From positions 1 through 64,000 of the forward strand of contig CALKXD010000003.1 in NCBI GenBank assembly GCA_938003855.1: a stretch of 64,000 bases of DNA, given 5' to 3'. Made by a program: the position numbers and the translations under genes. This DNA is from an uncultured Granulosicoccaceae bacterium (lineage in GTDB: Bacteria > Pseudomonadota > Gammaproteobacteria > Granulosicoccales > Granulosicoccaceae). Within the stretch, counting starts at the first letter, position 1. Each line of letters opens with the position of its first letter. Positions 46,448 through 64,000 of the stretch are shown here, piece after piece. Below the pieces are notes generated by a model. That model saw only the letters and a program-made list of their open reading frames with translations. It did no database searches and was not told the DNA's origin.

Positions 46448-49400
46448 GTGTCGAATAATAGCCTCCAGCGTTATGCAAGGACACAACCATGCATCGAGGT
46501 ACTTGAGGGCAGGGTGCTCTATTCGGCAGATCTGCCCGGGATTCTGCCAGTCGGTGATGCTGATGTCGCAGACAACTCAGTGCTGGACGCGTTTTTTCCC
46601 GATCAGTCCGATGTAACCCATTCGATTGACGGTGCGGGGGAAAACAGCAGCGAAATCGTGTTTATCGACACCCGCATCGCCGGCTATCAGACGCTGCTGC
46701 AAGACATTGAGCGCATGCCCCGGGTGAATTCAGTGCATCTCATCAGCGCTGACGAGGATGGCCTGTCCGTTGTCACCGGGGTGCTGTCCGGCTATCGTGA
46801 CCTGTCGGCGGTGCATATATTAAGTCACGGCACTGATGCCAGTCTCGCTCTCGGCACGGCGGTGCTTGATACCGAATCTGTCAGTCAGCGACAACAAGAT
46901 CTGGCCGTCTGGGGCGGCGCTATGGCTGAGTCAGGTGATCTGCTGTTCTACGGTTGCCAGCTGGCCGCCAGTGACAACGGCAGATCATTGATTAGTGAAA
47001 TCAGCCGGTCTACCGATGCTGATGTGGCAGCCAGCACCGACGCTACCGGACACCGGCTCTACAGCGCTGATTGGGATCTTGAGCACCACGCAGGTGATGT
47101 GCAGACGCAGTCGCTGATCAGCCGTGCCACTGCGAATGACTGGCAGGTGCTGCTGTCGGTGATCAATGTGACCACTACAGACGATATCGTCGATGCGGCA
47201 GCAGTTGATCTATTGTCCGTTGCCACACTAATCAGCAACCCGGGGCCGGACGGTTTCATTTCACTTCGTGAGGCGATCATTGCCACCGAAGCTGATGCCG
47301 GCGCCGACGAGATTCGTCTCGCGGCAGAGACCTATATATTATCGATCGCCGGCAACGGGGTTGATGGTGATCTGGATATCACCGGTGATCTGACGATTCG
47401 CGGTCAGGGGGCGCTTGGTACCACGATTGATGGCAACCGTATTGATCGCGTTTTTGACGTCAGCACCGGGGTGGTTGAGATTGACGCGCTGACCATCACT
47501 GGTGGTAAGAGCGACAACGGTGAAGAGGCTGGTGGCATTCGCCTTGATGGTGGCACGCTGACACTGAACGACATAACCTTTGACAGCAATACTTCCACCA
47601 ACAAACATGGTGGCGCATTGCACGTGGAAAATGGAACCCTGTTTGTCTATGACTCGCTGTTCGTAAACAACATCGCTGATCCGGACACAGCACCATCCTA
47701 CCGCGATGGTGGTGCTATCTATAACGAGGGCGTAGCCACTCTGGAGCGTGTTACTTTTGATTCGAATATGGGCGATAAGGGCGGAGCGATCCACAACCAT
47801 GGCACACTGACACTGACTGATGTGGCTTTCTATAATAATTCGGCGTCGTTTGCCGGCGGCGCAATTGATAATCATCGCGGTGGTACAGTCATACTGGATC
47901 GAGTCACCTTTGAGGCCAACACCAGTTCCGGTCAGGGTGGTGCGATGCGCACGGATGGTCCCACCAGCTTTGATGCGGTGACGCTCAGTGGCAATATTGC
48001 GGCAGGAGACGGGGGAGCACTTAAAGTAATGAGCGGCGGCACCGTCGATATCTCACACAGTACCTTTGTTGCCAACATCTCATCCGCAACGGGTGGGGCG
48101 ATTAGCAGCGACAGTAACAATGTGACTCTGGCAAGCTCACTTTTCGCTGATAATATTGCCGCGGTCGCAAGTGATGCGATTGATGGCACAATTACCTCGA
48201 CGGGCTTTAATATTGTAGACGATGCAGGCTACGCCGCAGGCATTGCAACGGATCTGATCGGTATTGATCCCCTGCCGGGTCCGTTGCAAAACAATGGCGG
48301 TTATGTGAAAACACATGCCGTCTCAACGGGCAGTGCTGCTGTAAATGCCGGTGGCGGATTGGTGGGTGTTGATGCAACTGGACTGACGCAGGATGATCTC
48401 CCGGATATAGGAGCGCATGAGTCGCGCAGTGGTTATTTACTGCCTAAGCTGTACTGGACTGACCTTACCGAGAAGATAATCTACCGCGCCAATGAAGACG
48501 GCAGTGCGGTGCAGGCAATAGTTAATACGACAGAGACCCCGTTTGATATAGAAGTCGATTTGGGCGGCGGCCGGATATACTGGGTTGAGGCCGATGGAGA
48601 CTACTCTGCAAATGGCCGACTCGGCAGTCTGATGACTGCCGGTCTTGATGGCTCCAACGCTACAGCACTTGCGACTAGCTTGCTGTATCCTACGGGTCTG
48701 GCGCTTGATGTGGCCGGAGGGTATGTATACGTCACTCTGGACTCGACCACGGTTAACGATTTTCCAGGGCCCTATATAAATAGTATTGTGCGATATAATC
48801 TGGATGGCTCCAACAAAACCATCATTGCGAGCGGTGCCTTCACTGACCCGGTGTCTGATCGCATTGTCGCACCAACAGATATAGAGTACGACGCCGGCTC
48901 ACAGCGACTGTACTGGACCGATAGAGGCCGGTATATATTTCCATCGATGGTCGGTGAGGAAATAAAACTAATAGATCTTTCGGCTGGCAGCACGCAGGTT
49001 CAGGTTATTGGTAAGCCTGCTGTTACTGCCCATGCGCCGTATGGAATCACCCTGTTGCCGGGCGGGGAGGAACTCTACTGGGCAAACTCGCAAGGTATCA
49101 GCTACCTGGACTATCGTTCAGGTTCTGCCGTTGAAAGCCACAGCGCTGTGGTTTCCGGATCATCGGTCTATGGCGTGCAATATCATCAGGAGAACAATAC
49201 GCTCTACCTGACAGATCATTCAGGCACTATACGCAGTATCAGCGCTGATCTTTCGACTAATACCATATTGCTGAGCGGGCTGGTTGACCCCACCGCCATT
49301 GCCGTGGCGACCCCCCGGGTGGTTGGTCTTGCACCGGTGCTCGAAACCAACACTGGTGTTACTGTACTTGAAGGCGGGAGCACTCAGATAAGCAGTGCGG

Positions 49401-52400
49401 TGCTCAATACCACTGATGCAGATACCGCCGCTTCCGATTTGCTCTATACCGTAGTGACGGCACCGGTAAATGGACGCCTGCTCGATAGCGGCGGGGTTCC
49501 CGTATCAATGTTCACACAGTTGAATATCGATGCTGGAACTATAAGTTACCAGCACTTTGGTGATGAAAATACCGGGGACACTTTTACCTTCACGGTGGGT
49601 GATGATGCCACTACATTATCGGCAGCCACGCTGACCATAGTGGTCACTCCGCAGAATGACGCGCCGGTTGCCGTGCCAGACAGCTATGTGCTCAATGAGG
49701 GTGAGTCACAGATACTCGATCTGAGTGACAATGACAGTGATGTTGACGATGGACTTGACCCAGCCTCGATCGCTGTCAGCGGTGGCCCCCTGAATGGTGC
49801 GGTGGTTGTCCACAGCAACGGCACAGTCACCTACCAGCACTCGGGCACCGAGACAGTCAATGACAGCTTTACCTATACTATAGATGACCTCGGCGGGTTG
49901 TCCTCGAGTCCGGTGATTGTGTCGCTGACGATTACACCGGTGAATGACGCCCCGGTCGCTGTGGCAGACAGTTACACCATCAATGAAGGAGGTTTTTCAA
50001 CTTTAAATGTCAGCCTGAACGACAGCGACGATGACGATGGGCTTGACCCTGCCAGCATAGATGTTACCGTAGCACCGGTGCATGGTGCAGTAAACCCGAA
50101 CCTTGATGGTACAGTCACCTACACACATGACGGCTCTGAGTCAGTCACGGACAGCTTTACTTACACCATTGCTGATTTATCCGGCCAATTATCTGATCCC
50201 GTGACGGTATCGCTCACTATAACTCCGCAAAACGATGCGCCGCTAGCAATCGCAGACAGTTTTTCGGTAGACGAGGGTGCCGCCGATACCGTTAATCTGA
50301 TCACCAACGACGTCGATGCTGACGACGGACTTGATCCGGTCAGTCTGGCTATTACGGTAAACCCGCTGTATGGCACAGTGACGGTCAATGGCGATGGTAC
50401 CGTAACCTACACCCACAATGGCTCAGAGACACTGACTGACAGTTTTCGCTATACGCTCAGGGATAACACCGGTGCAATATCGAATCAGGCCACCGTGTCG
50501 CTGACGATCAATGCAGTGAATGACGCGCCCACGGCTGTCCCTGAGAACTACACGGTCAATGAGGGGGCATCCGCTACCCTGGCCATCCTGTCCAATGATT
50601 CAGATGCAGATGACGGTATTGATGTTTCGACGCTGGCCATTACCCGTAATCCGGTCAATGGCACACTTGTGGTAAATGCCGCCGGCACTGTGAGCTACCT
50701 GCACGATGGTTCGGAAACACTGGCTGATAACTTCAGCTACAGCGTTGATGACTTCAGTGGTGCAACATCAAATACGGTGACAGTATTACTGACGATCAGC
50801 CCGCGTAATGACGCGCCGGTTGCGTTAACTGATGTGGCCACCGTGAATGAGGGAGCGGCGGCGGCCATTGATGTTGCTGCAAACGACACCGACTCCGATG
50901 ACGGGCTTGATCCGGGAAGCCTTATTATCACCAGTGCGCCGTCGCATGGTACGGCGGTACCCGCCAGCGATGGTGCAGTGATGTATACCCACGATGGTTC
51001 GGAAACCCATACTGATAGCTTTACCTACACGATTGATGATAACAGCGCGACAACGTCAAACCCGGCGCTCGTAAGCGTTGTGATAACACCGCAAAACGAC
51101 CCCCCGGTTGCAGTCGCCGACAGATTTGTCGTTAATGAAGGAGAGGTATCCCGGCTGGAATTGCTTAGCAACGATAGCGACGCGGACGACGGGCTGGATA
51201 GCAGCAGTGTGCTCATAGTGCAGGCACCGGCAAACGGCGCCGTTGTTGTGTATCCGGATGGTAGCGTTGACTATACGCATGATGGATCCGAAACACTGGC
51301 CGATACTTTCAGCTACACCATTGCCGATCTCAGTGCGGCGGTGTCAGGTGCGGTTGAGGTGGCGCTTGATATCACCGCACAGAATGACGCCCCGATTGCC
51401 GTCAATGATAACTATAGTGTTGCTGAAGGCGGCAGTGCCGTTTTTGATGTCGCCGGAAATGACACCGATGCGGATGACGGTCTGGATCTGTCCAGCATCG
51501 CAGTAACAACACCGCCAGCCAACGGGGTGATCAATGTAACGTCTGATGGATCGCTTGTTTATATCCATGATGGTGGAGAAACAACAGCTGACAGTTTTGC
51601 CTATACCATTGATGATTTAAGCGGTGTGACCGCCGCGCCAGCGGCAGTGGCAATTACGGTATCGCCGCAAAATGATCCGCCGCAAGCACGCTCAGACAGT
51701 TTTACCGTATCCGAACATAGCAATACGGTTCTGGATCTGGCTGCAAACGATACAGACCCTGACGACGGGCTGGATTTCGGTAGTATCGAAATTACCCTCG
51801 CACCTGACTATGGCACATTGATAACCGGCACAGATGGAACCGTGGAGTATCGCCATGACGGCGCAGAGCAACCCGCTGATCAGTTTGCCTATAGTATTCG
51901 GGACAGGGCGGGTGTGGTTTCCAGTCCGGTTACTGTCGGGCTGACGATCACGCCGGTAAATGATCCCCCGGTTGCGATGGCAGAGAGCTATACCGTCAAT
52001 GAAGGCTCAACGCTAATGGCTGATCTGGCCGCCAATGACAGTGATGCTGAAAATGGTTTAAAGCTCGATAGTATAAGTATTGTCAGTCCACCGGTTAACG
52101 GCGACCTGATACTAAATACGGATGGCACGGTTGATTATCGCCATGATGGTTCAGAGACGCTTACCGATAGCTTCAGTTACACCATAGGCGACTATGACGG
52201 TGCAGAGTCTAATCTTGTTACCGTGTCTCTGACGATAACCCCGGTCAATGATGTACCTTTGGCAGTGCCGGAGCAATTCAGCGTTGATGAAGGGTCGACC
52301 ACCACACTTAATCTGGCGATAAATGATCGAGATGATGATGACGGGCTGGACTTCAGCAGTATCCGGTTTCTGCAATCACCGGCGAACGGCGAAGTGATTG

Positions 52401-53797
52401 CCAATGGTGACGGCACGGTAAATTATTTGCACGATAGCTCCGAAACACTCGAGGATCGCTTTAGCTATACCATCGATGATGTCACGGGAGCGTCTTCTGC
52501 AGAGGTGACAGTGCTGCTGTCTGTTGTGCCCGTTAACGATGCGCCTGTCGCACAGGTCGATCAGTACCGGATCGATGAAGGCGCCGCCGCTCGACTTAAC
52601 ATACTGCACAACGACTCCGATGCCGATGACGGGCTCGATACCGCCACCGTAGTGATCGGGCAGTTTCCCGATAACGGCACCACAGTGATTAATCCGGATG
52701 GTTCTGTCGATTACCGGCACGATGGCTCCGAGACATTGCGGGACAGCTTTAGCTATAGCGTCGACGATAACAACGGTGAGCCTTCAAATGTCGTGATTGT
52801 GGATCTTACGATCAATCCGAAGAACGATTCACCGGTTCTGGCTGTGCCGCCGCAATCGGGGCTGACACTGGCATCCCCGTTTTTAACCTTGCCTGCCGAT
52901 ACCTTCACGGACGCAGAAGCGGATGACCTTGTCTATACGGCGACGCTAGTCTCCGGTGAGGCATTACCGGACTGGATATCCTTCAATGCTGAGACACTAA
53001 CCTTTAGTGTGCAATCTGTACTGGCGTCTGACCTGGCGATTAACGTTCTGCTGGTAGCAACTGACCCTGCAGGTGCGTCGGTCAGCACCGAGTTATCCTT
53101 TCGTACCCAGCCGGTATTCGCGAGTGCGCTAGCCACTGAGCCCTTTAGCGTGTTGTATCCGACGGCACAGCAAAGAACCGAAAATACCATGTCCTTAAGC
53201 AGGGAGGCGCTGCAGCAAAGCCGCTCGGGACCTGACGCCCACACATTCACCGAAGAAAACAGCGTGGTCTCCAGAGCAATAGATCCGTCGAGTTTGTCTC
53301 TAAGTCTGGGGGAGGTAACAATAACTCCATCAGCGGCAGACTATTCCGCGGGTGCCGCGACCAGTGTTAAGCAGCACAAGCGACCGGTCAATGTTATTCC
53401 GCTGGATAATGTTGTTGAATTCAATCCCGGGATCTTTGTCAGTCTGGCCCGGTCTATGGAGGGGATACAGCAACAGCTAACAGAGGATTCCAGGCAGCCA
53501 GTTCTCAACCTGGTTACTACATCAGCGGCTGCAGTGTCAGGTTTATCGGTAGGCTATGTCATCTGGCTGTTGCGTGGTGGCGTGCTGCTGGCCAGTTCTA
53601 TAGCATCACTGCCGGCGTGGAGGCTTATAGATCCATTGCCGGTTCTTGATTCATTGAATAAAAACGAGTCTGACCGCGATGCCGAATCTCTACAGTCCAT
53701 GGTAGAGGATCAGCAATCCCACCATCCTGCTAAAGACTCCATCACCACTGATGCTGATAGCGGAAACAGACGCCGGGCAGGTGGCTTTGCTGGTTAA
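46448..53797 (+). CDS. giant LEPR-XLL surface protein (DUF4347, beta-helix, cadherin-like repeats)
   Basis: A 2449-aa modular protein, probably exported and adhesive. In order: LEPR-XLL motif (CIEVLEGRVLYSAD, residues 15-28); DUF4347 domain (about 68-225, with HILSHGT and FYGCQLA); a CSLREA-like start (ISLREAI) of a right-handed beta-helix with GGAI repeats (about 265-640); YWTD-type propeller repeats (about 666-955); one diverged cadherin-like unit (about 960-1069); 11 regular 96-residue units (1070-2125); a dystroglycan-type cadherin domain (about 2126-2230); and a hydrophobic segment (2360-2390, GYVIWLLRGGVLLASS) before a polar tail. Asp-rich NDSDADDGLD loops suggest calcium binding. GTG at 46448 directly follows an in-frame stop, so no earlier start exists. 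No classical signal peptide. Confidence 0.88.
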   Translation: MSNNSLQRYARTQPCIEVLEGRVLYSADLPGILPVGDADVADNSVLDAFFPDQSDVTHSIDGAGENSSEIVFIDTRIAGYQTLLQDIERMPRVNSVHLISADEDGLSVVTGVLSGYRDLSAVHILSHGTDASLALGTAVLDTESVSQRQQDLAVWGGAMAESGDLLFYGCQLAASDNGRSLISEISRSTDADVAASTDATGHRLYSADWDLEHHAGDVQTQSLISRATANDWQVLLSVINVTTTDDIVDAAAVDLLSVATLISNPGPDGFISLREAIIATEADAGADEIRLAAETYILSIAGNGVDGDLDITGDLTIRGQGALGTTIDGNRIDRVFDVSTGVVEIDALTITGGKSDNGEEAGGIRLDGGTLTLNDITFDSNTSTNKHGGALHVENGTLFVYDSLFVNNIADPDTAPSYRDGGAIYNEGVATLERVTFDSNMGDKGGAIHNHGTLTLTDVAFYNNSASFAGGAIDNHRGGTVILDRVTFEANTSSGQGGAMRTDGPTSFDAVTLSGNIAAGDGGALKVMSGGTVDISHSTFVANISSATGGAISSDSNNVTLASSLFADNIAAVASDAIDGTITSTGFNIVDDAGYAAGIATDLIGIDPLPGPLQNNGGYVKTHAVSTGSAAVNAGGGLVGVDATGLTQDDLPDIGAHESRSGYLLPKLYWTDLTEKIIYRANEDGSAVQAIVNTTETPFDIEVDLGGGRIYWVEADGDYSANGRLGSLMTAGLDGSNATALATSLLYPTGLALDVAGGYVYVTLDSTTVNDFPGPYINSIVRYNLDGSNKTIIASGAFTDPVSDRIVAPTDIEYDAGSQRLYWTDRGRYIFPSMVGEEIKLIDLSAGSTQVQVIGKPAVTAHAPYGITLLPGGEELYWANSQGISYLDYRSGSAVESHSAVVSGSSVYGVQYHQENNTLYLTDHSGTIRSISADLSTNTILLSGLVDPTAIAVATPRVVGLAPVLETNTGVTVLEGGSTQISSAVLNTTDADTAASDLLYTVVTAPVNGRLLDSGGVPVSMFTQLNIDAGTISYQHFGDENTGDTFTFTVGDDATTLSAATLTIVVTPQNDAPVAVPDSYVLNEGESQILDLSDNDSDVDDGLDPASIAVSGGPLNGAVVVHSNGTVTYQHSGTETVNDSFTYTIDDLGGLSSSPVIVSLTITPVNDAPVAVADSYTINEGGFSTLNVSLNDSDDDDGLDPASIDVTVAPVHGAVNPNLDGTVTYTHDGSESVTDSFTYTIADLSGQLSDPVTVSLTITPQNDAPLAIADSFSVDEGAADTVNLITNDVDADDGLDPVSLAITVNPLYGTVTVNGDGTVTYTHNGSETLTDSFRYTLRDNTGAISNQATVSLTINAVNDAPTAVPENYTVNEGASATLAILSNDSDADDGIDVSTLAITRNPVNGTLVVNAAGTVSYLHDGSETLADNFSYSVDDFSGATSNTVTVLLTISPRNDAPVALTDVATVNEGAAAAIDVAANDTDSDDGLDPGSLIITSAPSHGTAVPASDGAVMYTHDGSETHTDSFTYTIDDNSATTSNPALVSVVITPQNDPPVAVADRFVVNEGEVSRLELLSNDSDADDGLDSSSVLIVQAPANGAVVVYPDGSVDYTHDGSETLADTFSYTIADLSAAVSGAVEVALDITAQNDAPIAVNDNYSVAEGGSAVFDVAGNDTDADDGLDLSSIAVTTPPANGVINVTSDGSLVYIHDGGETTADSFAYTIDDLSGVTAAPAAVAITVSPQNDPPQARSDSFTVSEHSNTVLDLAANDTDPDDGLDFGSIEITLAPDYGTLITGTDGTVEYRHDGAEQPADQFAYSIRDRAGVVSSPVTVGLTITPVNDPPVAMAESYTVNEGSTLMADLAANDSDAENGLKLDSISIVSPPVNGDLILNTDGTVDYRHDGSETLTDSFSYTIGDYDGAESNLVTVSLTITPVNDVPLAVPEQFSVDEGSTTTLNLAINDRDDDDGLDFSSIRFLQSPANGEVIANGDGTVNYLHDSSETLEDRFSYTIDDVTGASSAEVTVLLSVVPVNDAPVAQVDQYRIDEGAAARLNILHNDSDADDGLDTATVVIGQFPDNGTTVINPDGSVDYRHDGSETLRDSFSYSVDDNNGEPSNVVIVDLTINPKNDSPVLAVPPQSGLTLASPFLTLPADTFTDAEADDLVYTATLVSGEALPDWISFNAETLTFSVQSVLASDLAINVLLVATDPAGASVSTELSFRTQPVFASALATEPFSVLYPTAQQRTENTMSLSREALQQSRSGPDAHTFTEENSVVSRAIDPSSLSLSLGEVTITPSAADYSAGAATSVKQHKRPVNVIPLDNVVEFNPGIFVSLARSMEGIQQQLTEDSRQPVLNLVTTSAAAVSGLSVGYVIWLLRGGVLLASSIASLPAWRLIDPLPVLDSLNKNESDRDAESLQSMVEDQQSHHPAKDSITTDADSGNRRRAGGFAG
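49655..52822 (+). repeat. 11 tandem 288-bp (96-residue) cadherin-like units
   Basis: Eleven consecutive units, each beginning with NDxP and each exactly 96 codons long with no insertions or deletions (11 x 288 = 3168 bases). Shared positions: NDxPxA start, NEG, ND(S/T)DxDDGLD, GTVxYxHDGSETxxDSFxY and a closing LTI. DNA copies are well diverged, so the array is old or under strong length constraint. Confidence 0.95.
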
Positions 53798-54334: not shown

Positions 54335-55519
54335 CTATGTGCGCTCTGGAATATCAATTCGCTTGCCGCGTGGTATTTCGGCAAGCTGATCATAGAATGG
54401 CATATCAACCAGCTCGCCCTCATGTATCGAGCCGTCACTGCAACCAATGCTGACGCTGTTACCCGACACCTGGCCGGTGTTTGTAAATCGGACAATGCCG
54501 ATTCCATAACCTAGAAATGGCGACGTTGCACCAGCCGTGACTGTCCCGATGACGGTGTCATTCAGTGTGACGGGGGCGCCGATCAACGGCTCACCGGTAG
54601 TGCACCTGACACCAAACAACCTCGATACTTTTGCAGCGGCGGCCAATGATGCCTTGCCGATGAAGTCCCCTTTATCTGCATCTACAAATCTCCCCAGGCC
54701 AACGTCATAGGGGGTGGTGGTATGGTCAAAGTCCGACCCGGCGTTAAGGATGCCAGCTTCTATCCGTCTGATGTTCATTGCATCCAACCCGAATATCTCC
54801 AGGCCGTAAGGCTCGCCTGCCTCCTGCAGATGTTGCCAGATCGCGTTGGCGTCGTGATGTGGTTCGGTGTAGAACTCAAAGCCCAGTTCATTGGTGTAGC
54901 CGGTGCGGGAAATGACTAGTTCCTGACCGCCAAAGTTGACCCGGGCAATGGCAAAATAACCAAACGGTTCCGGCAGATTGCCGCCGTTTGCAGCGGCCAG
55001 AATCTTCAGCGAGTTGGGGCCCTGTACCTGTGAGACATACACGCGCGGGTCGGAGATCTGCACATCCAGTCCAGCCGCATGAGCACGTGCCCAGCTGTAG
55101 AAATCACCGTCGGCCTGCGCGTACCAGAATTTCTCTTCAGAGAGGCGCAGCAGGATGCCATCAACGATCAGACCGCCGTCTTCATAACAGGCAATACCGT
55201 AACCGCACCGTCCGACTTTTATCCGGGTGATGTCTTTGGTAAAGAGCTTGTCGAGCAGGCGCTCAGCATCGGGTCCGTCAAACTGTAGCGGAAACTCACC
55301 GGTATTAAGCAATGCTGCCTTCTGACGCAGCAGCCAATAGCTGTCTTCGGTCGACTTTGTATCGAAGCAGCAGGCCATGTGACGACGGTTGTAGACGCAG
55401 TAACGGGGTCCCATCGGGCGTTCAATTTCGTGGTAAGGGTGGCGGGACAAGCTATAGTCCCAACCGGCACCGGGAATACTTGATACTAAATCCCTTGTCT
55501 TTCCGTCACTTGAGTTCAT
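54335..55519 (-). CDS. GcvT-family aminomethyltransferase-like protein
   Basis: A 394-aa folate-dependent protein of the glycine-cleavage T family. The GCV_T domain (about residues 40-290) carries KDITRIKVGRCGYGIACYEDGG, then QGPNSLKIL and RTGYTNELGFEFY, and the C-terminal barrel follows (about 300-385). It stands free of any FAD domain and of gcvH or gcvP. It is therefore likelier to be a specialised demethylase or aminomethyltransferase than the glycine-cleavage T-protein. ATG at 55519 has GGGG upstream; the frame is open 19 codons earlier. It is divergent from a GcvA-like LysR regulator, which probably controls it. Confidence 0.85.
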   Translation of the reverse strand: MNSSDGKTRDLVSSIPGAGWDYSLSRHPYHEIERPMGPRYCVYNRRHMACCFDTKSTEDSYWLLRQKAALLNTGEFPLQFDGPDAERLLDKLFTKDITRIKVGRCGYGIACYEDGGLIVDGILLRLSEEKFWYAQADGDFYSWARAHAAGLDVQISDPRVYVSQVQGPNSLKILAAANGGNLPEPFGYFAIARVNFGGQELVISRTGYTNELGFEFYTEPHHDANAIWQHLQEAGEPYGLEIFGLDAMNIRRIEAGILNAGSDFDHTTTPYDVGLGRFVDADKGDFIGKASLAAAAKVSRLFGVRCTTGEPLIGAPVTLNDTVIGTVTAGATSPFLGYGIGIVRFTNTGQVSGNSVSIGCSDGSIHEGELVDMPFYDQLAEIPRGKRIDIPERT

Positions 55520-55660
55520 TGTGTTTCCCCGATTGAAATTTTGCATGGTCCGCGCGCGCATCCGGCCTGTGAGCACGTATGTCAGGTCGTAGTATCCCCT
55601 AAAGCTGGATGTAAATTTCGCATTTGATCTGCCTCCAGGGGTTAGATAAAGTTACTTTCC

Positions 55661-56593
55661 ATGAGTCATCCTTTTCCTTCTCTAAATGCGCTGCGTGCGT
55701 TCGAAGCGCTTTCCCGCCATCTGCATTATCCGTCGGCCGCCGAAGAATTGAACGTCAGTCCTGCAGCGGTCAAGCAACTCGTCAGCAAACTCGAAAGTCT
55801 GATCGGGGCGCGCCTGGTCGAACGTCGGGGCAGAGGGTTGGTCATTACGCCCGTCGGCATGGCAGGTCTGGAGGATCTCGGCGGCGCCATGACCCTGATG
55901 ACCTCGTCTGTCCAGAAGATGCGAGAGCCGGATCGGTCAAGGCGGTTGATTGTCTCGGTGGAGGCATCAATGGCCACTACCTGGCTGGTACCGAAACTGG
56001 TGGAATTCAGATCCCGTCATCCACAGATTAATGTGTTGATTGACTCCTCACAGGAGGTTGTTGATCTGCGCCGCAGTGATGTCGACGTTGCCATTCGCTA
56101 CGGCGTTGAAAGCGAGCGGTCTCTGGTGGTGAATCGTCTCTTTGAAGATCGGATTTTCCCGGTATGCAGTCCGGCTTTTGCCAATGGCCCGGTTCGTCTG
56201 GAGTCCCTGACTGATCTCTCGGCCGTACCGTTGATACATTGGGACCTTGCAAAAATGACCTGGGCGCGAACCACAAAAAAATGGTTTAACTGGCAGAGCT
56301 GGTTATCGCATGTTGGTGCAGCGTCGATCGCCACCGATAAGGGGTTATATTTCAGTGACTATGGGCTGGCTGTGCAAGCGGCCATAGCAAGCCAGGGCAT
56401 TGTACTGGCCAGTTGGCCGATTTTGAAAGATGTGATTGATGCGGGACTGCTGGTGCAGCCATTTGCCGAAGAAGTCGTCACCGATATAGGTTATGACGTC
56501 GCCACTACCGAATATGCCCGGCAGCGCCCGGAAGTCGATGTATTTGTCTCCTGGATAATGGAAACCTCAAAGCAAACAGACGTCAGCCTTTGA
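55661..56593 (+). CDS. LysR-family transcriptional regulator, GcvA-like
   Basis: A 310-aa regulator. The N-terminal helix-turn-helix (about residues 7-66: SLNALRAFEALSRH, SAAEELNVSPAAVKQLVSKLE) has the GcvA-type start. The substrate-binding domain (about 93-300) includes VDVAIRYG and YFSDYGLAVQAAIASQGIVLA. It lies back to back with the GcvT-family gene, 141 bases apart, the standard layout for a LysR activator and its target. The ligand is presumably an amino acid or methylated amine. The ribosome site is not clear. Confidence 0.92.
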   Translation: MSHPFPSLNALRAFEALSRHLHYPSAAEELNVSPAAVKQLVSKLESLIGARLVERRGRGLVITPVGMAGLEDLGGAMTLMTSSVQKMREPDRSRRLIVSVEASMATTWLVPKLVEFRSRHPQINVLIDSSQEVVDLRRSDVDVAIRYGVESERSLVVNRLFEDRIFPVCSPAFANGPVRLESLTDLSAVPLIHWDLAKMTWARTTKKWFNWQSWLSHVGAASIATDKGLYFSDYGLAVQAAIASQGIVLASWPILKDVIDAGLLVQPFAEEVVTDIGYDVATTEYARQRPEVDVFVSWIMETSKQTDVSL

Positions 56594-57219
56594 ACGGCGT
56601 AGCACACGTGTCAGGCAATCTGCGACGCTATTAGATTTATTGTTCATAAGGTCAGGCCAGTTGCGGTTCGATTCGACCTATGACGACACCGGATGCGTTG
56701 TGGTAACGGGTAGGAAATGACCCACCGAACCCGCTAATAGACAATCCTGCGTGTGAGCCGACACCATAGAGACGTACCGGTTAGTACGACGCCGCTGTGC
56801 GTCTGGTCGACAAGTAATGGTTTTCTTTTATCGATTCCACTGATTAGCAGTGTTCCGCCTGCCATGGCCGGCAGCACCAGTGTGCTGCCAGCCGATGTCC
56901 CGGCTGTACCGGTTTAAAGGGATACTGCATGATTGAGTTTACTGTCAATTCGTTGGCGGCCGCCAGTTGAGTAACTAGTAGCAAAGTCATCAAAATTGAT
57001 TGATTTTAGGGGTGTTTGGCCGATGGGAAATAAGTAACAGAAGGATACCGGAGGCTTAGAGGGGTTCCCCCGGGTCAGCGTTCTGTCCCTGGTTAAACCG
57101 TGGTTCTACAGAGTATTTCCCGTAGCGTGAAATTGTGGCCAGTGATCGGCAGTTTTGTAGACAGGAGCGTCAACCTCCGCAGCAGTAGGAATTCGAATCT
57201 AACATCGGAAGGTAACTCT
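56594..57219. other. structured gene-free region upstream of the second giant gene
   Basis: About 625 bases. It holds two consecutive hairpins: GGCAGCAC-CAGT-GTGCTGCC (56870-56889) and AGCCG-ATGTCC-CGGCT (56890-56905). Also present are the palindromes GGCGGCCGCC (56955-56964) and ATCAA-AA-TTGAT (56989-57000). No gene. The layout looks like a regulated long leader, but no known riboswitch is recognisable. Confidence 0.4.
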
Positions 57220-60200
57220 GTGGGCGTGCACCTCGAGTTGCTGGAAAACAGGGTTTTGTATTCCGCCGACATTCTGAGTGGCACCGTCATTGTGGATGCG
57301 GCTGCCGATGATCTACTTTTGCCGGATGAAGATAATCAGACGCAGCGCAACCGCAGCGGTGATCCTGCCGTGCAGCCGGTTCCCCCGACTGACCCGGTTG
57401 CAAACGAAATTCTTGCCTCTGATCTCGCAGTGATCGGGTCGTTTATCGGCGGGCCGGATGCCGAGCACCTGTCTGATGCAACGCCGAAAGCCAGCGCTGA
57501 GGATACCGCCCGCAGAACTGTCATGGCGGCGGCGAATCAAGCGCCGACACTCACCGGCCTGCCAGTCAGTGCCCCGGTCTATACCGAAGCGGGTGCCGGC
57601 GTGCCGGTCGGGCCGTCGCTGACAGCGTTTGATCCGGACCTTGATGTAGTAAACAGCTATAGCGGTTTTGAAGTCACTTTGCACAGAAGCGGGGCCCCCA
57701 ACGGCACCGATATTTTTGACCTGGGTAGTTATGCCAGCGGGTCTGATGTTGTCTATGCAGGCAGCGGTGGCGCGACGATTGGAACAATTATCCAGAATAG
57801 CGGTGGCACCTTGCAGATTCAGTTCAACGCGGCGGCAACCAGTGATGCGGTTAGCGATACCCTTAGAGCCATAGCGTACAGTAACACTGCGGTGACTGAT
57901 GCCCAGTCACACATTGACCTGCAGTGGACTCTGGACGATAACAACAGTGGCGCGCAGGGCAGCGGCGGCGCGGCAAGCGTGAGTTACACCACCGGCATTG
58001 ATATCGTCCCGGCGTTTCTTGTGGTGAATGACGATGATCTGGGTAACATCCTGGCTGGCACAGCGACGACGATCGATTATGCCGATCTGCTGGATAACGA
58101 TACCGGTCTGAGTGCTCCCGGCGCTGTTATTACCGATGTCACAAACCCGACCATTGGCAGCCTGACCGATACCGGGTCGGGCTTTAGTTTTGCCAGCGCC
58201 GCAGGTGATAGCGGCCCGGTGACGTTCGACTACGATGTGATGACGGGTAACCCCGACCTCATCAGTCAGTGGGGGCTGACTGACGGTGCCAGCGATGACT
58301 CCGGTAACAACAACGGGTCTGTTGTCACTGACAGTCCACCCAATGACCTGACATTCGATGGCGATGACTATGCCGTGATACCGAACTTTGACTACCCGGC
58401 ACATTTTACGGTGAGTCTGGATTTCAAGGTGAACAGCCTCAACAACAGTCTCGAAGAAACCCTGTTTGCCCAGGGAGATTATAAAAAGAAAAACTCCCTG
58501 CACATATGGATAGCAGGCGATAACGCCGACACTGGAGCATTTCAAAATCAGTTAATTACAGACATCAGAGATGATAATGACTCCGGCAGTGGATATAACG
58601 GCCATACAATAGATGTTTCTTCCTTTTCCGGCGATGGACTCTGGCACAACTATACGATTGTTGTTGAAGAAGGGGTGGGGACGACGATCTACCTTGACGG
58701 CGTCGATCAACTGGCGTCCACAGCAAACCATGGCGAGAAAGCGTTTTCCCCGACTGCCGATATCCATATCGGGGTAGACGCCAGTGAAGGGGGTTTTGAT
58801 TATCACCTGACCAATCACGAAATACGAGACGTGAGGGTGAGTGACGGGTTTGATGCAACTCATCTTCAAAACAATACCGTCAATGAATATGGCACAGCAA
58901 CAGCAACGCTCAACCTGCGCAACGAAGAGGTACTGGCTGCCAACAATACTATTGGCGTGCTGGAAGATCAGCGCAAGCTGGTAACCAATCTTGACCTGCG
59001 GGCCACAGATGCCGATGACGGCCCGGCCGCATTGATCTACCAGATAACAGACGTACCGGATTTTGGTGCTCTGTTACTTAATGGCACTCAGCTCGCGCAC
59101 GGTGAATCGTTTACTCAATTAGATATAGACAGTAATAATCTGGAGTATCATCATCAGGGTGATGAAACAGCCACATCAGATACCCTGGCGATTCGATTGG
59201 ACGATGGACTGGGCACACACACCAACGCTACTGTGGCTTTTTCGCTTTCGCCGGTCAACGACGCACCCGTTCTGACTGACGGCGTTCTTGCCGATATCGA
59301 CGAAGACACGGTATCACCCGGCGGGGCCACTATAGACTCTATATTTACCGGCAGCTTCTCTGATCCTGACAGTGATTTTTATGGTGTGGCGATTGCCGCC
59401 GATGTTGCCGGGGCTGAAGGCAGCTGGCAGTATTCCACCGATAACGGATCGAGCTGGTTTGCGGTGGGCCCGGTCGATACCCATTCAGCCCTGGTACTCG
59501 CTAAGGCCGCGCTGATGCGGTTTGTCCCGGCGGCGAATTTCAATGGCAGTATTCCTGCGCTGACCGTGTATGGCATCGATGATAGCTATGCAGGGGCTGC
59601 GACTAACCAGGGTAGCCGGGCTACCGCCGATGCCGCCACGCGTGGCGGCAATGCGCCTCTATCGCTGGCGGGATCGACAATACAGTCATCGGTACTCAGC
59701 GTTAATGATCTGCCAACCCTCGGCAATGGAGCACTGGCAGATATCCCCGAAGACTCAACTACCCCTGCAGGCGCGCTGATCAGCGATATATTTAGCGGTC
59801 AGTTCTCGGATGTAGACAGTGGCTTTGCCGGTATCGCGATCTCGTCCACCAGTGCGGCGGCTAATGAAGGTGACTGGCAGTATTCCCTGGACGCAAGCGT
59901 TACCTGGAACAGTGTCGCACCGGTCAGCGCAGGTGACGCGTTGTTCCTGAGCACCACAACGCTGCTTCGATTCATGCCTGCGCCCGACTACCATGGCGCA
60001 TACCCGACACTTGATGTTTATGCTGTTGATGATTCGCTTGCCATCAGCATGACCAGCGTCGGTGCACGGCAGACAGCGGACATTACCGCACCCGTCAATA
60101 CATCGGTATTATCGCTTCTGCCCTCGACGATTAGCGGTGATGTCACCAGTGTTTTTGACCCGCCCTACAATTCAGGGGCATTGCCGGCGTCGGCAACGGT

Positions 60201-63200
60201 TACCGAGGATATCTATAGTGCTATTGATCTGTCCGGTGTTGTTGTTGAGCAGGAGGATCACGCTGGATCAATGACGCTTGAGATTGCCACCGTCAATGGA
60301 AGCTTAAGCGGGCGAAACGATCTTCCCGCCAGTATCAGTAATAGCGGCGGCACCCTTCAGATTACCGGTGACGCTACGTCGATCAATGATTATTTAAGTC
60401 ATGGTGCGATAAGATACGTTCATGCTAATGCGCATCATCACGGCAACGCTTCGGATACCATTACCGTTACGCTCACGTATGGGTCAGGTAACAGCGTTCT
60501 ATTTGGGTCTTTCCCGGTAGATATAGTAAACGTTAATGATGCACCGGTCGGTGGCAACTCTACCACCACAATTATAGAGGACACGCCGTATCTGATGTCT
60601 GTGCCGGATTTTGTCTATACAGACCCGGCAGATGGCGACGATCTGCTGGCCGTGCATATTGTGGCGGCTCCGGATCACGGAGCGCTGGTGTTGGATGGCT
60701 CTGTTGTCACCGACGGGCAGATCATCAGTGTTGCGGATATTCAGGCCGATAAACTGTGGTTGACGTCAGAGCCGGATGCCGATGGTGGCAACTATGATGT
60801 GATTACCTATCGTGTGCAGGACGATGGCGATACGCTGAATGGCGGCGACGACCTCAGTGACGCACAGGCGACCATGACTATAGATATCAGTGGCGTAAAT
60901 GATGCGCCGCTGGTGAGCGGGTTTAACGGGCCGCCAACGGTTGTCAATGAAGACACCATGGTACAAATTACTGCCGCGATGCTCGCATCCCAGGTGAATC
61001 ACAGCGATGCCGAGGATGGTCAGACGGCGCAATTCCGGGTGGTTGCACCGGTGTCCGGCACATTGCTCATCGGTGCGGACTCAGCCGGCGCCAGTCCTTA
61101 TAGGATTGGCGTCAATGAGGTCGTCGACTCGTCGCGGCATGCCTACTGGCAGGCCGATGCAAATGCCTTTGGTGTGCTGAGTGCATTTTCGGTGCATGCC
61201 GTTGACAGCAGCGCGGTGGAATCCGTAAACAGCGCCGGGGTACTGATTGATGTGCAGCCGGTAAATGATCCGCCAGTGCTGTCCGGTTATGCGGCGCCAC
61301 TGATTACCGGTAGTGAAGATACCTTGCTTACGGTCACCATTGCTGACTTACAAGCGATGAGCAGCGATGTCGAAGATATCTCAGTGGCGGCTATGCAGAT
61401 ACAGTCCGTTGATTCCGGTACGTTGCTTATCGGTGCGAATGCCTCTGTGGCTACCGTATTTGATGCCGTATCCAACAACACCATCGATGCATCCAGTAGC
61501 GGTTACTGGCTCCCCGATCCCAACGCTAATGGAGTGCTCAGTGCTTTCAGAATGCGCGGTGTTGACACCGGTGGTGAAATCTCGGTCGCCACTGAGACAG
61601 TACTCGCAACGGTTTCTGCGCTGAATGACCCACCGGTACTGGCCGGTTATGGCGCGGCGCTGAAGATTACCGACGAAGATACCGTGGTGCCATTGACACT
61701 CGCTGATCTGCAGGCAGGCAGCAGCGATGTGGAAGACGTATCATTGCAGGGTCTGGTGGTGCAGGACGTGCGCAGTGGGTCGCTATTTATCGGGGCAGAC
61801 CAGGCGTCTGCCGTGGCGTACCTTGCCGGTGTTAACGATACCGTCGACGCCCTGGACACCGCCTATTGGACACCGGACGCTGACATCTCCGGTACCCTGT
61901 CCGCATTTTCAGTTCGCGGTATAGATTCAAGCGACGAGCTATCTGTCACCACAGAGACGGTGCTTATCTCCGTCACTGCTGTTAATGATGCCCCGGTTCT
62001 AGCAGGCTATGGCAGCGCGATAGCAACCACCGATGAGGACACGGCTGTTCAGTTATCGCTGGCTGATCTTCAGGCTGGCAGCAGTGATACTGAAGATAAC
62101 ACGCTCAGTGGATTGGTTGTGCAGAGTGTATTGTCCGGTTCACTATCGATAGGTGCGGAGGTAAGTTCAGCCACACCGTTTGTGCCGGTAACCAACGACA
62201 CGATCAATGCGACAAACAGTGCGTGGTGGCTACCCGACGCCGACATCAATGGAGACATTGCAGCCTTCGACATACGCGGTATCGACAGTGACGGGGCGGC
62301 CTCTGCGGATGTGGCATCTGTCATTGTAGCGGTCGACGCAGTCAATGATGTGCCGGTGTTGCAGCCGGCGAGTGCGCCTGTCGCATCTGTCCTTGAAGAT
62401 GCCACCGTCGAGATCACACCGGGGTTGCTTATTGCAGCCTTTAATGCAACAGATGTCGACGGTAGCATCGACGCTTTCACTGTAGACGATGTGTTGTCGG
62501 GGACGCTCAGCCTTGGCGCAGATGAGGCGTCGGCTACCCCCTGGCAGGCGACAGCCAACGACACTATCAGTGCTGCAAATAAGGCTTACTGGACCCCGCC
62601 GTCAAATGCTGCTGCATCTGCTGTCAGCGCGTTTACGGTGAGTGCCGTTGATAATGCCGGTGCCACCTCGCTTGCATCTGCGGGTGTCGATGTCGAGGTT
62701 AATCCAGTCAATGATCCACCCACGGCACTGGACACTGACGCGGTAGCGTCGTCCCGTCAGGCCTATTATTTCGACCGTACAGATTTCGGGTTCGACGATC
62801 CGGTGGAAAATCACTTACTGTCTGCCATTGTGATTAATGACCTGCCGGACAGTGGGCGTTTGCTGTATCAGGGCGCCCCCGTGGTGACCGGACAGGAAAT
62901 TCCGCTGGCTACGCTGCACCAGTTGCACTTTATTCCAGTGGCGGGACTGGCAACTACCGCGCAGCTTGGTTTTTCTGTACGCGATGATGGCGGGACTCAA
63001 GACGGCGGTATTGATCTATCCTCAAACAACGCCTTTGTCAGGTTGACTATTAGCAATTCAGATCTGCCACCGGTACCGGTGGTTGTGCAGCCGGACTTCC
63101 AGGTGCACGAAAACAGTGCTGCCGGTACCGTGATCGGCCAACTCGACTACACCGATCCGGACCCCGTGTTAACGCTGGTTGAGGACGGAGACTTCGCGTC

Positions 63201-64000
63201 AGCCCCTCGACCTCACGCCAGTTATAATCAATATTATTCTGACGGTTCCGGCTTCGGCTCGGTGTTGGGCGGCTGGACCGTTGTGACGGGCTCTGTCGAT
63301 CTTCGGGGGAGCTCGTGGGTTAATGGACCGGCCGGTGGAATCGCCGTGGACCTGAATGGCGATGAGCCCGGTGCAATCGAACAGGTGATCGATACCGTGC
63401 CCGGCGGCCGGTATAATCTGTCGGTGCAGCTGTCGGGTAACTTCCAGGCTTCGAGCCCTGGTGATATCGCTACCGTCGTGATCACGGCAGGCGCTGAGCT
63501 ACAGCAATTCGATGTTGTGATGCCGGCCGGGTGGTCGACGTCGGATCCACACTGGCAGCAGGTGCAATTACCGTTTACGGCAACCGCAGACACGACTACT
63601 GTTGGCTTTTCTTCCAGTATGCCGGGCAACCGTGGTCCGTTGATTGCCGATGTGCTGGTGCTTGATGCGCTAAACTACGAGCTCGCCGGCGTCGACAGTC
63701 CTTTTAACATCACCGCTGATGGCAGTTTGTATTTCAATAGTGGTAGCCTCAATTATGAAGCGGCTGCCAGTCACGATGTTGATATAAATGTAACGGAGGC
63801 CGATGGTCTCTCTACGCGGCTGACGGTTGCCGTAGAAATCCTTGATGTCAATGAAAGCCCTGATCTAATACAGAACTCTGCAGTGCAGGCTATCGTTGGT
63901 CAAGCTGTCGTTATAGACTCCGCGTATCTGCTGGCGACAGATGTCGATGCTGCAGATCAGTCGGCGGATTCACGGTCCTACACACTGACGTCGCTTCCGG
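57220..64000 (+). CDS. second giant LEPR-XLL surface protein (3' end outside window)
   Basis: At least 2260 aa, cut by the window edge. In order: LEPR-XLL motif (HLELLENRVLYSAD) at the very start; beta-sandwich region; LamG/concanavalin-like domain (about 347-548); cadherin-like units; two copies of a 149-residue type unit (59257-60114, ADI(D/P)ED start); a run of five 120-122-residue units (60898-62709); a choice-of-anchor-C-like module (about 1985-2150, GSVDLRGSSW then VDLNGDEPGAIEQVI); and a cadherin domain (about 2160-2215). GTG at 57220 is chosen because AGG lies seven bases upstream; the frame is open from 57097 with other GTG/TTG options. It contains no DUF4347. Confidence 0.87.
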   Translation, partial: MGVHLELLENRVLYSADILSGTVIVDAAADDLLLPDEDNQTQRNRSGDPAVQPVPPTDPVANEILASDLAVIGSFIGGPDAEHLSDATPKASAEDTARRTVMAAANQAPTLTGLPVSAPVYTEAGAGVPVGPSLTAFDPDLDVVNSYSGFEVTLHRSGAPNGTDIFDLGSYASGSDVVYAGSGGATIGTIIQNSGGTLQIQFNAAATSDAVSDTLRAIAYSNTAVTDAQSHIDLQWTLDDNNSGAQGSGGAASVSYTTGIDIVPAFLVVNDDDLGNILAGTATTIDYADLLDNDTGLSAPGAVITDVTNPTIGSLTDTGSGFSFASAAGDSGPVTFDYDVMTGNPDLISQWGLTDGASDDSGNNNGSVVTDSPPNDLTFDGDDYAVIPNFDYPAHFTVSLDFKVNSLNNSLEETLFAQGDYKKKNSLHIWIAGDNADTGAFQNQLITDIRDDNDSGSGYNGHTIDVSSFSGDGLWHNYTIVVEEGVGTTIYLDGVDQLASTANHGEKAFSPTADIHIGVDASEGGFDYHLTNHEIRDVRVSDGFDATHLQNNTVNEYGTATATLNLRNEEVLAANNTIGVLEDQRKLVTNLDLRATDADDGPAALIYQITDVPDFGALLLNGTQLAHGESFTQLDIDSNNLEYHHQGDETATSDTLAIRLDDGLGTHTNATVAFSLSPVNDAPVLTDGVLADIDEDTVSPGGATIDSIFTGSFSDPDSDFYGVAIAADVAGAEGSWQYSTDNGSSWFAVGPVDTHSALVLAKAALMRFVPAANFNGSIPALTVYGIDDSYAGAATNQGSRATADAATRGGNAPLSLAGSTIQSSVLSVNDLPTLGNGALADIPEDSTTPAGALISDIFSGQFSDVDSGFAGIAISSTSAAANEGDWQYSLDASVTWNSVAPVSAGDALFLSTTTLLRFMPAPDYHGAYPTLDVYAVDDSLAISMTSVGARQTADITAPVNTSVLSLLPSTISGDVTSVFDPPYNSGALPASATVTEDIYSAIDLSGVVVEQEDHAGSMTLEIATVNGSLSGRNDLPASISNSGGTLQITGDATSINDYLSHGAIRYVHANAHHHGNASDTITVTLTYGSGNSVLFGSFPVDIVNVNDAPVGGNSTTTIIEDTPYLMSVPDFVYTDPADGDDLLAVHIVAAPDHGALVLDGSVVTDGQIISVADIQADKLWLTSEPDADGGNYDVITYRVQDDGDTLNGGDDLSDAQATMTIDISGVNDAPLVSGFNGPPTVVNEDTMVQITAAMLASQVNHSDAEDGQTAQFRVVAPVSGTLLIGADSAGASPYRIGVNEVVDSSRHAYWQADANAFGVLSAFSVHAVDSSAVESVNSAGVLIDVQPVNDPPVLSGYAAPLITGSEDTLLTVTIADLQAMSSDVEDISVAAMQIQSVDSGTLLIGANASVATVFDAVSNNTIDASSSGYWLPDPNANGVLSAFRMRGVDTGGEISVATETVLATVSALNDPPVLAGYGAALKITDEDTVVPLTLADLQAGSSDVEDVSLQGLVVQDVRSGSLFIGADQASAVAYLAGVNDTVDALDTAYWTPDADISGTLSAFSVRGIDSSDELSVTTETVLISVTAVNDAPVLAGYGSAIATTDEDTAVQLSLADLQAGSSDTEDNTLSGLVVQSVLSGSLSIGAEVSSATPFVPVTNDTINATNSAWWLPDADINGDIAAFDIRGIDSDGAASADVASVIVAVDAVNDVPVLQPASAPVASVLEDATVEITPGLLIAAFNATDVDGSIDAFTVDDVLSGTLSLGADEASATPWQATANDTISAANKAYWTPPSNAAASAVSAFTVSAVDNAGATSLASAGVDVEVNPVNDPPTALDTDAVASSRQAYYFDRTDFGFDDPVENHLLSAIVINDLPDSGRLLYQGAPVVTGQEIPLATLHQLHFIPVAGLATTAQLGFSVRDDGGTQDGGIDLSSNNAFVRLTISNSDLPPVPVVVQPDFQVHENSAAGTVIGQLDYTDPDPVLTLVEDGDFASAPRPHASYNQYYSDGSGFGSVLGGWTVVTGSVDLRGSSWVNGPAGGIAVDLNGDEPGAIEQVIDTVPGGRYNLSVQLSGNFQASSPGDIATVVITAGAELQQFDVVMPAGWSTSDPHWQQVQLPFTATADTTTVGFSSSMPGNRGPLIADVLVLDALNYELAGVDSPFNITADGSLYFNSGSLNYEAAASHDVDINVTEADGLSTRLTVAVEILDVNESPDLIQNSAVQAIVGQAVVIDSAYLLATDVDAADQSADSRSYTLTSLP
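60898..62709 (+). repeat. five tandem 120-122-residue units
   Basis: Units start with ND(A/P/V)P at 60898, 61264, 61624, 61984 and 62344, the last ending at 62709 (lengths 366, 360, 360, 360 and 366 bases). Shared marks: EDT, a DVED-type acidic loop, SG(T/S)L(L/F/S)IGA, a Trp before a D-containing turn, and SAFxxxxVD. The middle three are closest to each other. Confidence 0.9.

Follow-up and report, generated by a model that had tools for sequence, protein, structure and literature searches.

Two giant repeat proteins at the locus

The window analyzed here, a 64,000-nt stretch of DNA from an uncultured Granulosicoccaceae bacterium, carries two genes for giant proteins in the same orientation (Table 1). 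Two further genes lie between them, one on the minus strand (54335-55576), which looks like an aminomethyltransferase-type protein, and one on the plus strand (55661-56593), which by its sequence looks like a LysR regulator. Both giants carry at their N-termini the LEPR-XLL motif, which marks some of the largest known bacterial proteins, and both scored above the curated cut-off of the NF012209 model. The first-pass annotation had described giant 1 as a protein with LEPR-XLL but no normal signal peptide, ending in a hydrophobic segment ahead of a polar tail. The motif was recovered by NF012209, and the N-terminus showed no 19-residue hydrophobic peak in hydropathy analysis, consistent with the absence of an ordinary signal peptide. 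The hydrophobic stretch (TTSAAAVSGLSVGYVIWLLRGGVLLASSIASLPAWRLIDPLPVL) was found in the position described, near residues 2355-2400, and the tail that follows it is acidic. Reading past position 64000, we located the stop of giant 2 near 66148, where the full frame ends ...GYLVMLARGGLLLSSVLSSLPAWRWVDPVPVLQSFGDEHDDDQGESLQSIVH. The same C-terminal segment is present there (contig positions 65908-66150), with 44% identity to the end of giant 1.

Behind LEPR-XLL, giant 1 contains a DUF4347 domain with an invariant His (in SHG) and Cys (in GC) in the alignment columns. The AF2 model of this domain was good, and its top PDB match in a Foldseek search was 9qpe_G (E 3.7e-5), a DUF4347-named protein of the Hcp3-Tce1 type VI complex, followed by weaker matches to legumain and caspases. 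The predicted fold suggests that DUF4347 may act as a self-cleaving protease. The SHG motif was seen in 15 of the 20 module proteins checked, and DUF4347 was not evident in all of them.

Table 1. Positions of the two giant genes and of their domains and motifs within the window
Feature	Position	Strand	Description and basis
Giant protein 1	46448..53797	+	2449 aa; LEPR-XLL, DUF4347, tandem-95/cadherin-like repeats, C-terminal module
LEPR-XLL motif, giant 1, CIEVLEGRVLYSADL	46490..46546	+	NF012209, 17.4 bits (curated cut-off 17)
DUF4347 domain, giant 1	46655..47155	+	Pfam PF14252, E 2e-45; invariant columns; AF2 and Foldseek; caspase-like fold
Helix before the membrane segment (module part 1)	53426..53485	+	AF2 helix 32-51, pLDDT about 80
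Hydrophobic helix of 33 residues around a central RGG, predicted membrane anchor	53510..53608	+	AF2 helix 60-92; hydropathy
Conserved PAWxxhDPLPVL block	53612..53647	+	Conserved columns in 73 sequences
Acidic tail with short conserved (D/E)SLxSMV(E) helix	53681..53716	+	Alignments and AF2
Giant protein 2	57100..63999	+	3017-codon frame, stop beyond the window; N- and C-terminal modules as in giant 1
LEPR-XLL motif, giant 2, LELLENRVLYSADIL	57229..57285	+	NF012209, 25.1 bits (cut-off 17)

A conserved C-terminal module

The last ~95 residues of giant 1 match five other proteins of the same genome, giant 2 among them, with E values from 8e-21 to 3e-16; the matches to a further two are weak. A profile built from the host copies recovered all eight (E 1e-28 or better). 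Two copies in the host genome (G000), on contigs C231 (end of L018, in a frame of 8811 residues) and C104 (L019, 7032-7886), form a divergent subtype, VTVGALTWALRGGALFTSLMAASPIWASVDPTRIY; they were kept as such, as their core can be aligned with the other copies. A scan of GTDB species genomes, seeded with five closer sequences, confirmed 105 further matches, and 79 loci were kept. The loci, among which Granulosicoccaceae are over-represented, fall in Gammaproteobacteria (many Granulosicoccaceae, also Amphritea, Marinobacter, and Saccharophagus), Betaproteobacteria (Aquabacterium, Thiobacillus, Rubrivivax), Deltaproteobacteria-labelled bins, Nitrospirota, Planctomycetaceae, and Myxococcota. 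The module was detected in 5 of 143 sampled genomes and, when the class was sampled more broadly, in 23 of 369 genomes. No plasmid-borne relatives of it were found. In whole-genome scans it terminates repeat-protein frames that are long or truncated by a contig boundary, and does not occur in ordinary cytoplasmic proteins.

The consensus reads GLSVGYVIWLhR[GS]GxLhxS...SLPAWxxhDPLxhL, followed by an acidic tail with a terminal ESLxSMV. Across 73 sequences P94 and W96 are invariant, and A95, D100, P101, and L105 are conserved in at least 90%. None of the Pfam or NCBIfam models covers the module in these 73 sequences, and a named sorting signal from either collection was rejected for want of a match. 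We also rejected a generic hydrophobic tail, given the conservation across phyla and the invariant G, R, G, P, and W. The C-terminal module is real and previously unnamed.

When the 73 sequences were supplied to AF2, residues 60-92 of the 154-residue C-terminus were modeled as one unbroken helix (core pLDDT 86-90), with low confidence beyond it. A helical hairpin was considered as well, but the model gives a single continuous helix. In 67 of the 73 homologues the net charge of the 21 residues preceding RGG is zero, and the tail after the helix has a mean net charge of -5.8. Judging from the model and from hydropathy, the 33-residue helix is probably a transmembrane anchor, and the Arg at the inner face together with the charge pattern would fit an N-out, C-in orientation. 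An Arg and two Gly in the middle of the helix are, however, unusual for a simple anchor.

Pairing of the C-terminal module with LEPR-XLL

A LEPR-XLL-like motif lies near the N-terminus in 32 of the 33 complete module frames (600 aa or longer), as against 4 of the 349 other frames (300 aa or longer) from the same loci. The regular expression was relaxed once variants such as AEPRLLLSAD and LEPRILFDGAA had been seen, and the 32/33 is descriptive rather than the outcome of a blind test. Nine frames of the host genome passed the NF012209 cut-off. Six of these have the C-terminal module as well, and the remaining three run into a contig end. The two host module frames without an NF012209 match (C214 and C104) sit at contig ends.

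The first-pass annotation had taken the two end motifs for a dedicated pair. This holds in one direction, from the module to LEPR-XLL, and the neighbouring giant 2 conforms to it; in the other direction it fails, since LEPR-XLL giants occur with other C-termini too, beside the same M50-HlyD machinery described below. The latter proteins indicate that export does not depend on the module. Furthermore, a Vibrio LEPR-XLL protein is reported to have an RTX C-terminus (PMC10868602), so that LEPR-XLL alone is not diagnostic of a route. Giants beside the M50-HlyD cluster at three loci of other genomes (L141 3-6485, L146 3-4958, and L149 11182-17001) end with a short hydrophobic stretch followed by basic residues, e.g., LLGVAAVTAAGLGRAQLNWR; such ends are possibly a second C-terminal type.

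A sensor kinase accompanies the C-terminal module

Seventy-one module loci extend far enough to be judged, and in 57 of them the next same-strand neighbour of the giant gene encodes a sensor hybrid kinase (PAS, HisKA, HATPase, REC, Hpt). This kinase gene often overlaps the giant gene or starts within ~80 bp of it. A REC-GGDEF-EAL gene follows the kinase in 36 of 40 cases (first count). The sensor region of the kinase is conserved (LSxxxxxAxGLxS...GLxPD...). A profile of this region detected it in 5 of 143 sampled genomes, which are exactly the five with the module; two of them, the host genome and G081, had contributed to the profile, and the other three (G009, G052, and G094) had not. The kinase was also present in all 14 genomes that had been picked mostly for a listed giant lacking an adjacent kinase.

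On host contig C147 (L136 14082-17345) one copy of the sensor region is joined to PAS-GGDEF-EAL rather than to a kinase, the sensor being kept and the output swapped. This fusion adjoins a second GAF-HlyD/M50-HlyD/HlyD cluster.

A secretion-like gene cluster accompanies LEPR-XLL

LEPR-XLL genes keep company with a cluster that encodes a PqqD-M50-HlyD fusion, a GAF-HlyD protein, an HlyD protein and, often, a short SecA-like ATPase. On host contig C116 the order is GAF-HlyD-type, M50-HlyD, HlyD, LEPR-XLL giant with the module, kinase, and REC-GGDEF-EAL. Just upstream of the C116 cluster lies a gene on the minus strand (L050 580-3096) for an 839-residue protein, which we judged from its sequence to be kelch/galactose-oxidase-like. 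In another genome (G053), genes for a TolC-type protein, HlyD, a LEPR-XLL giant, GAF-HlyD, M50-HlyD, and the SecA-like protein form one contiguous same-strand run, and the giant in this run has no module.

PqqD-M50-HlyD was found in 49 of 50 module genomes, several of which had supplied seed sequences, vs. 16 of 138 sampled genomes without the module (Fisher p 6e-30). It occurs in 21 of the 143 sampled genomes: 11 of the 13 with LEPR-XLL vs. 10 of the 130 others (p 3e-9). At a threshold of at least 500 bits, picked after the data had been seen, the counts are 11/13 vs. 1/130. LEPR-XLL thus tracks the export-like cluster and the C-terminal module tracks the kinase; genes that follow both motifs, for which the first-pass annotation had advised looking, do exist, a different set for each. 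This dissociation suggests a division of labour, in which LEPR-XLL would be the export signal while the C-terminal helix and tail would provide the anchor and the signal to the kinase.

The M50 part of the fusion is of the site-2 protease type by its motifs. Its metalloprotease motifs are intact (HExxH in 13/13 and NPLxxxDG in 12/13 members), and H, E, H, N, P, D, and G are invariant in the alignment. The N-terminus of the fusion is related to RRE/PqqD-like domains by sequence profile (PDB 3g2b, E 9e-7; the leader-binding TfuB1, E 0.004), and PF05402 matched 3 of 10 members. The short SecA-like protein (~660 aa) contains SecA_DEAD, preprotein-binding, and P-loop domains, while a scaffold/wing domain was not reported in the domain scan. 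Nine of the sampled genomes have its gene; M50-HlyD is present in each of them and directly adjacent in 8. Among the 50 module genomes, about 29 have the gene. In G147, G166, G171, and G184, the genomes of the Planctomycetaceae and Fuerstiella loci, M50-HlyD is not its immediate neighbour, in contrast to most Proteobacteria. We rejected a universal short SecA, as no such gene was found in the genome of the window and roughly 20 of the 50 genomes with the module lack it.

The chief alternative to an anchor is that the helix is a cleavable, sortase-type sorting signal. The M50 part of PqqD-M50-HlyD would then cut it inside the membrane, in RGG or close by, as rhombosortase does with GlyGly-CTERM, and the giant would be released or handed over. 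The intact M50 motifs, the helix-weakening GG inside the hydrophobic segment, the presence of the protease in nearly every module genome, and the ratio of many substrates to few enzymes (8 module proteins and 2 M50-HlyD in the host genome) would all agree with it. On the other hand, PqqD-M50-HlyD tracks LEPR-XLL, also where the module was not detected (e.g., G053, G071, G077, G090, G106, G107, and G119), and the tail past the helix is conserved in sequence, unlike a basic cluster that is discarded. We regard cleavage of this kind as unlikely.

It could be argued, too, that the helix is an ordinary stop-transfer segment reached after Sec export, and that the PqqD-M50-HlyD/SecA-like cluster serves other cargo, such as small modified peptides, its proximity reflecting nothing more than gene clustering. 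Among named families, the M50 part is closest to the peptide-maturation proteases of daptides and YydH/LiaK, which speaks for such cargo. Yet the cross-phylum conservation of the module far exceeds that of a generic transmembrane helix, the co-occurrence persists genome-wide where the genes are unlinked, and the N-terminus has no Sec-type hydrophobic stretch, which makes this explanation quite improbable.

A type I origin, with the C-terminus as the uncleaved signal of an ABC-dependent system and LEPR-XLL as a LapA-like retention plug, would account for the HlyD and TolC-type partners, the adjacent c-di-GMP proteins, which recall LapA biology, and the RTX end reported for the Vibrio protein. 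However, the conserved annotated neighbours include no ABC transporter gene (an unlinked one may lie elsewhere in the genome), and RTX and type I C-terminal models matched neither the 73 C-termini nor the two window giants, giant 2 being scanned to the end of the window. In addition, type I signals do not resemble a hydrophobic helix of 33 residues, and we give this origin very little credence.

A putative export-and-anchor system

Returning to the anchor, we lean towards the reading that the C-terminal segment both anchors its protein in the membrane and acts as a signalling tail, and that these giants, a class of probably adhesive surface proteins, are served by an export machinery of their own and linked to c-di-GMP. 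From the genome context we infer export, topology, peptide recognition, and the link to signalling, which could be arranged as follows. The LEPR-XLL peptide would be recognized by the PqqD/RRE-like domain of PqqD-M50-HlyD in the inner membrane. The giant chain would then be pushed through a conduit made up of PqqD-M50-HlyD, GAF-HlyD, HlyD, and a TolC-type channel; the short SecA-like ATPase may serve as the motor in many species, and another one, perhaps the main SecA, elsewhere, including the host genome. The C-terminal helix would halt the transfer, leaving the repeats outside and the Arg and the acidic ESLxSMV tail on the cytoplasmic side, from where the dedicated sensor kinase, in most cases together with the REC-GGDEF-EAL protein, would link the anchored state to c-di-GMP. 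The absence of the short SecA-like gene from the host genome and from many other module genomes counts against this arrangement.

More tentatively, and with somewhat less than even confidence, we propose that these parts make up a new type of Gram-negative secretion, in which a PqqD/RRE-read LEPR-XLL leader, M50-HlyD and, in many lineages, a truncated SecA would lead to an HlyD/TolC exit, and retention by the helix would be read by the kinase and the c-di-GMP enzyme. The open-access papers searched gave no description of such a system (M50 with HlyD, SecA-like with HlyD, LEPR-XLL, DUF4347, and giant genes were covered) and no export route for LEPR-XLL proteins. The suggestion of the first-pass annotation that the end motifs could mark an undescribed export or anchoring route is supported, with export and anchoring themselves inferred. 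Neither outcome that it named as a refutation, a segment missing from the neighbour and other LEPR-XLL proteins or one common in unrelated cytoplasmic proteins, was observed. With the genes that travel with LEPR-XLL proteins now named, the question of their export is directly testable. If the SecA-like/M50-HlyD reading is true, a tripartite exporter is spread across several phyla, and to our knowledge no numbered secretion system uses the motor and membrane part as proposed here.

Comparison with known systems

The described element closest at hand is the LEPR-XLL domain itself, the N-terminal motif of both window giants. Its model, NF012209, covers 24 N-terminal positions only, and comes without the C-terminal partner, the kinase, and the export cluster.

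In GlyGly-CTERM/rhombosortase and MYXO-CTERM/myxosortase systems, C-terminal hydrophobic signals on many surface proteins are served by few dedicated membrane proteases (PMC3237569, PMC11980579). The module resembles these in its hydrophobic C-terminal segment, its candidate membrane protease partner, and the many-to-few relation. It differs in that the candidate protease is neither a rhomboid nor a myxosortase but the M50-HlyD fusion, in that GG lies inside the helix and no GG or Cys signature precedes it, and in that the tail is acidic and conserved, with no basic cluster, on proteins without an ordinary signal peptide. In agreement with this, no named C-terminal sorting-signal model (NCBIfam, with GlyGly-CTERM tested) matched the 73 module sequences.

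With type I and LapA-type giant adhesins the system shares giant repeat proteins, HlyD adaptors, a TolC-type channel, and c-di-GMP neighbours. In contrast to these, the cluster has the SecA-like ATPase and PqqD-M50-HlyD in place of an ABC transporter, and the substrate combines an N-terminal motif with a C-terminal membrane helix. The M50 core is homologous to the intramembrane metalloproteases of daptides (NF041824, 168 bits) and YydH-LiaK (NF058609, 54 bits), but the scores are far under the cut-offs of 300 and 225, an HlyD domain is fused to it, and the substrates are presumably giant proteins.

Finally, the accessory SecA2 of Gram-positive bacteria is likewise a second SecA-like ATPase with an apparently special substrate class. 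The short SecA-like protein scored 290-480 bits against the SecA2 models, under all of their curated cut-offs (725-1100 bits). Unlike SecA2, it is about 660 aa long and has no reported scaffold/wing domain, and its gene adjoins those for HlyD in double-membraned bacteria.
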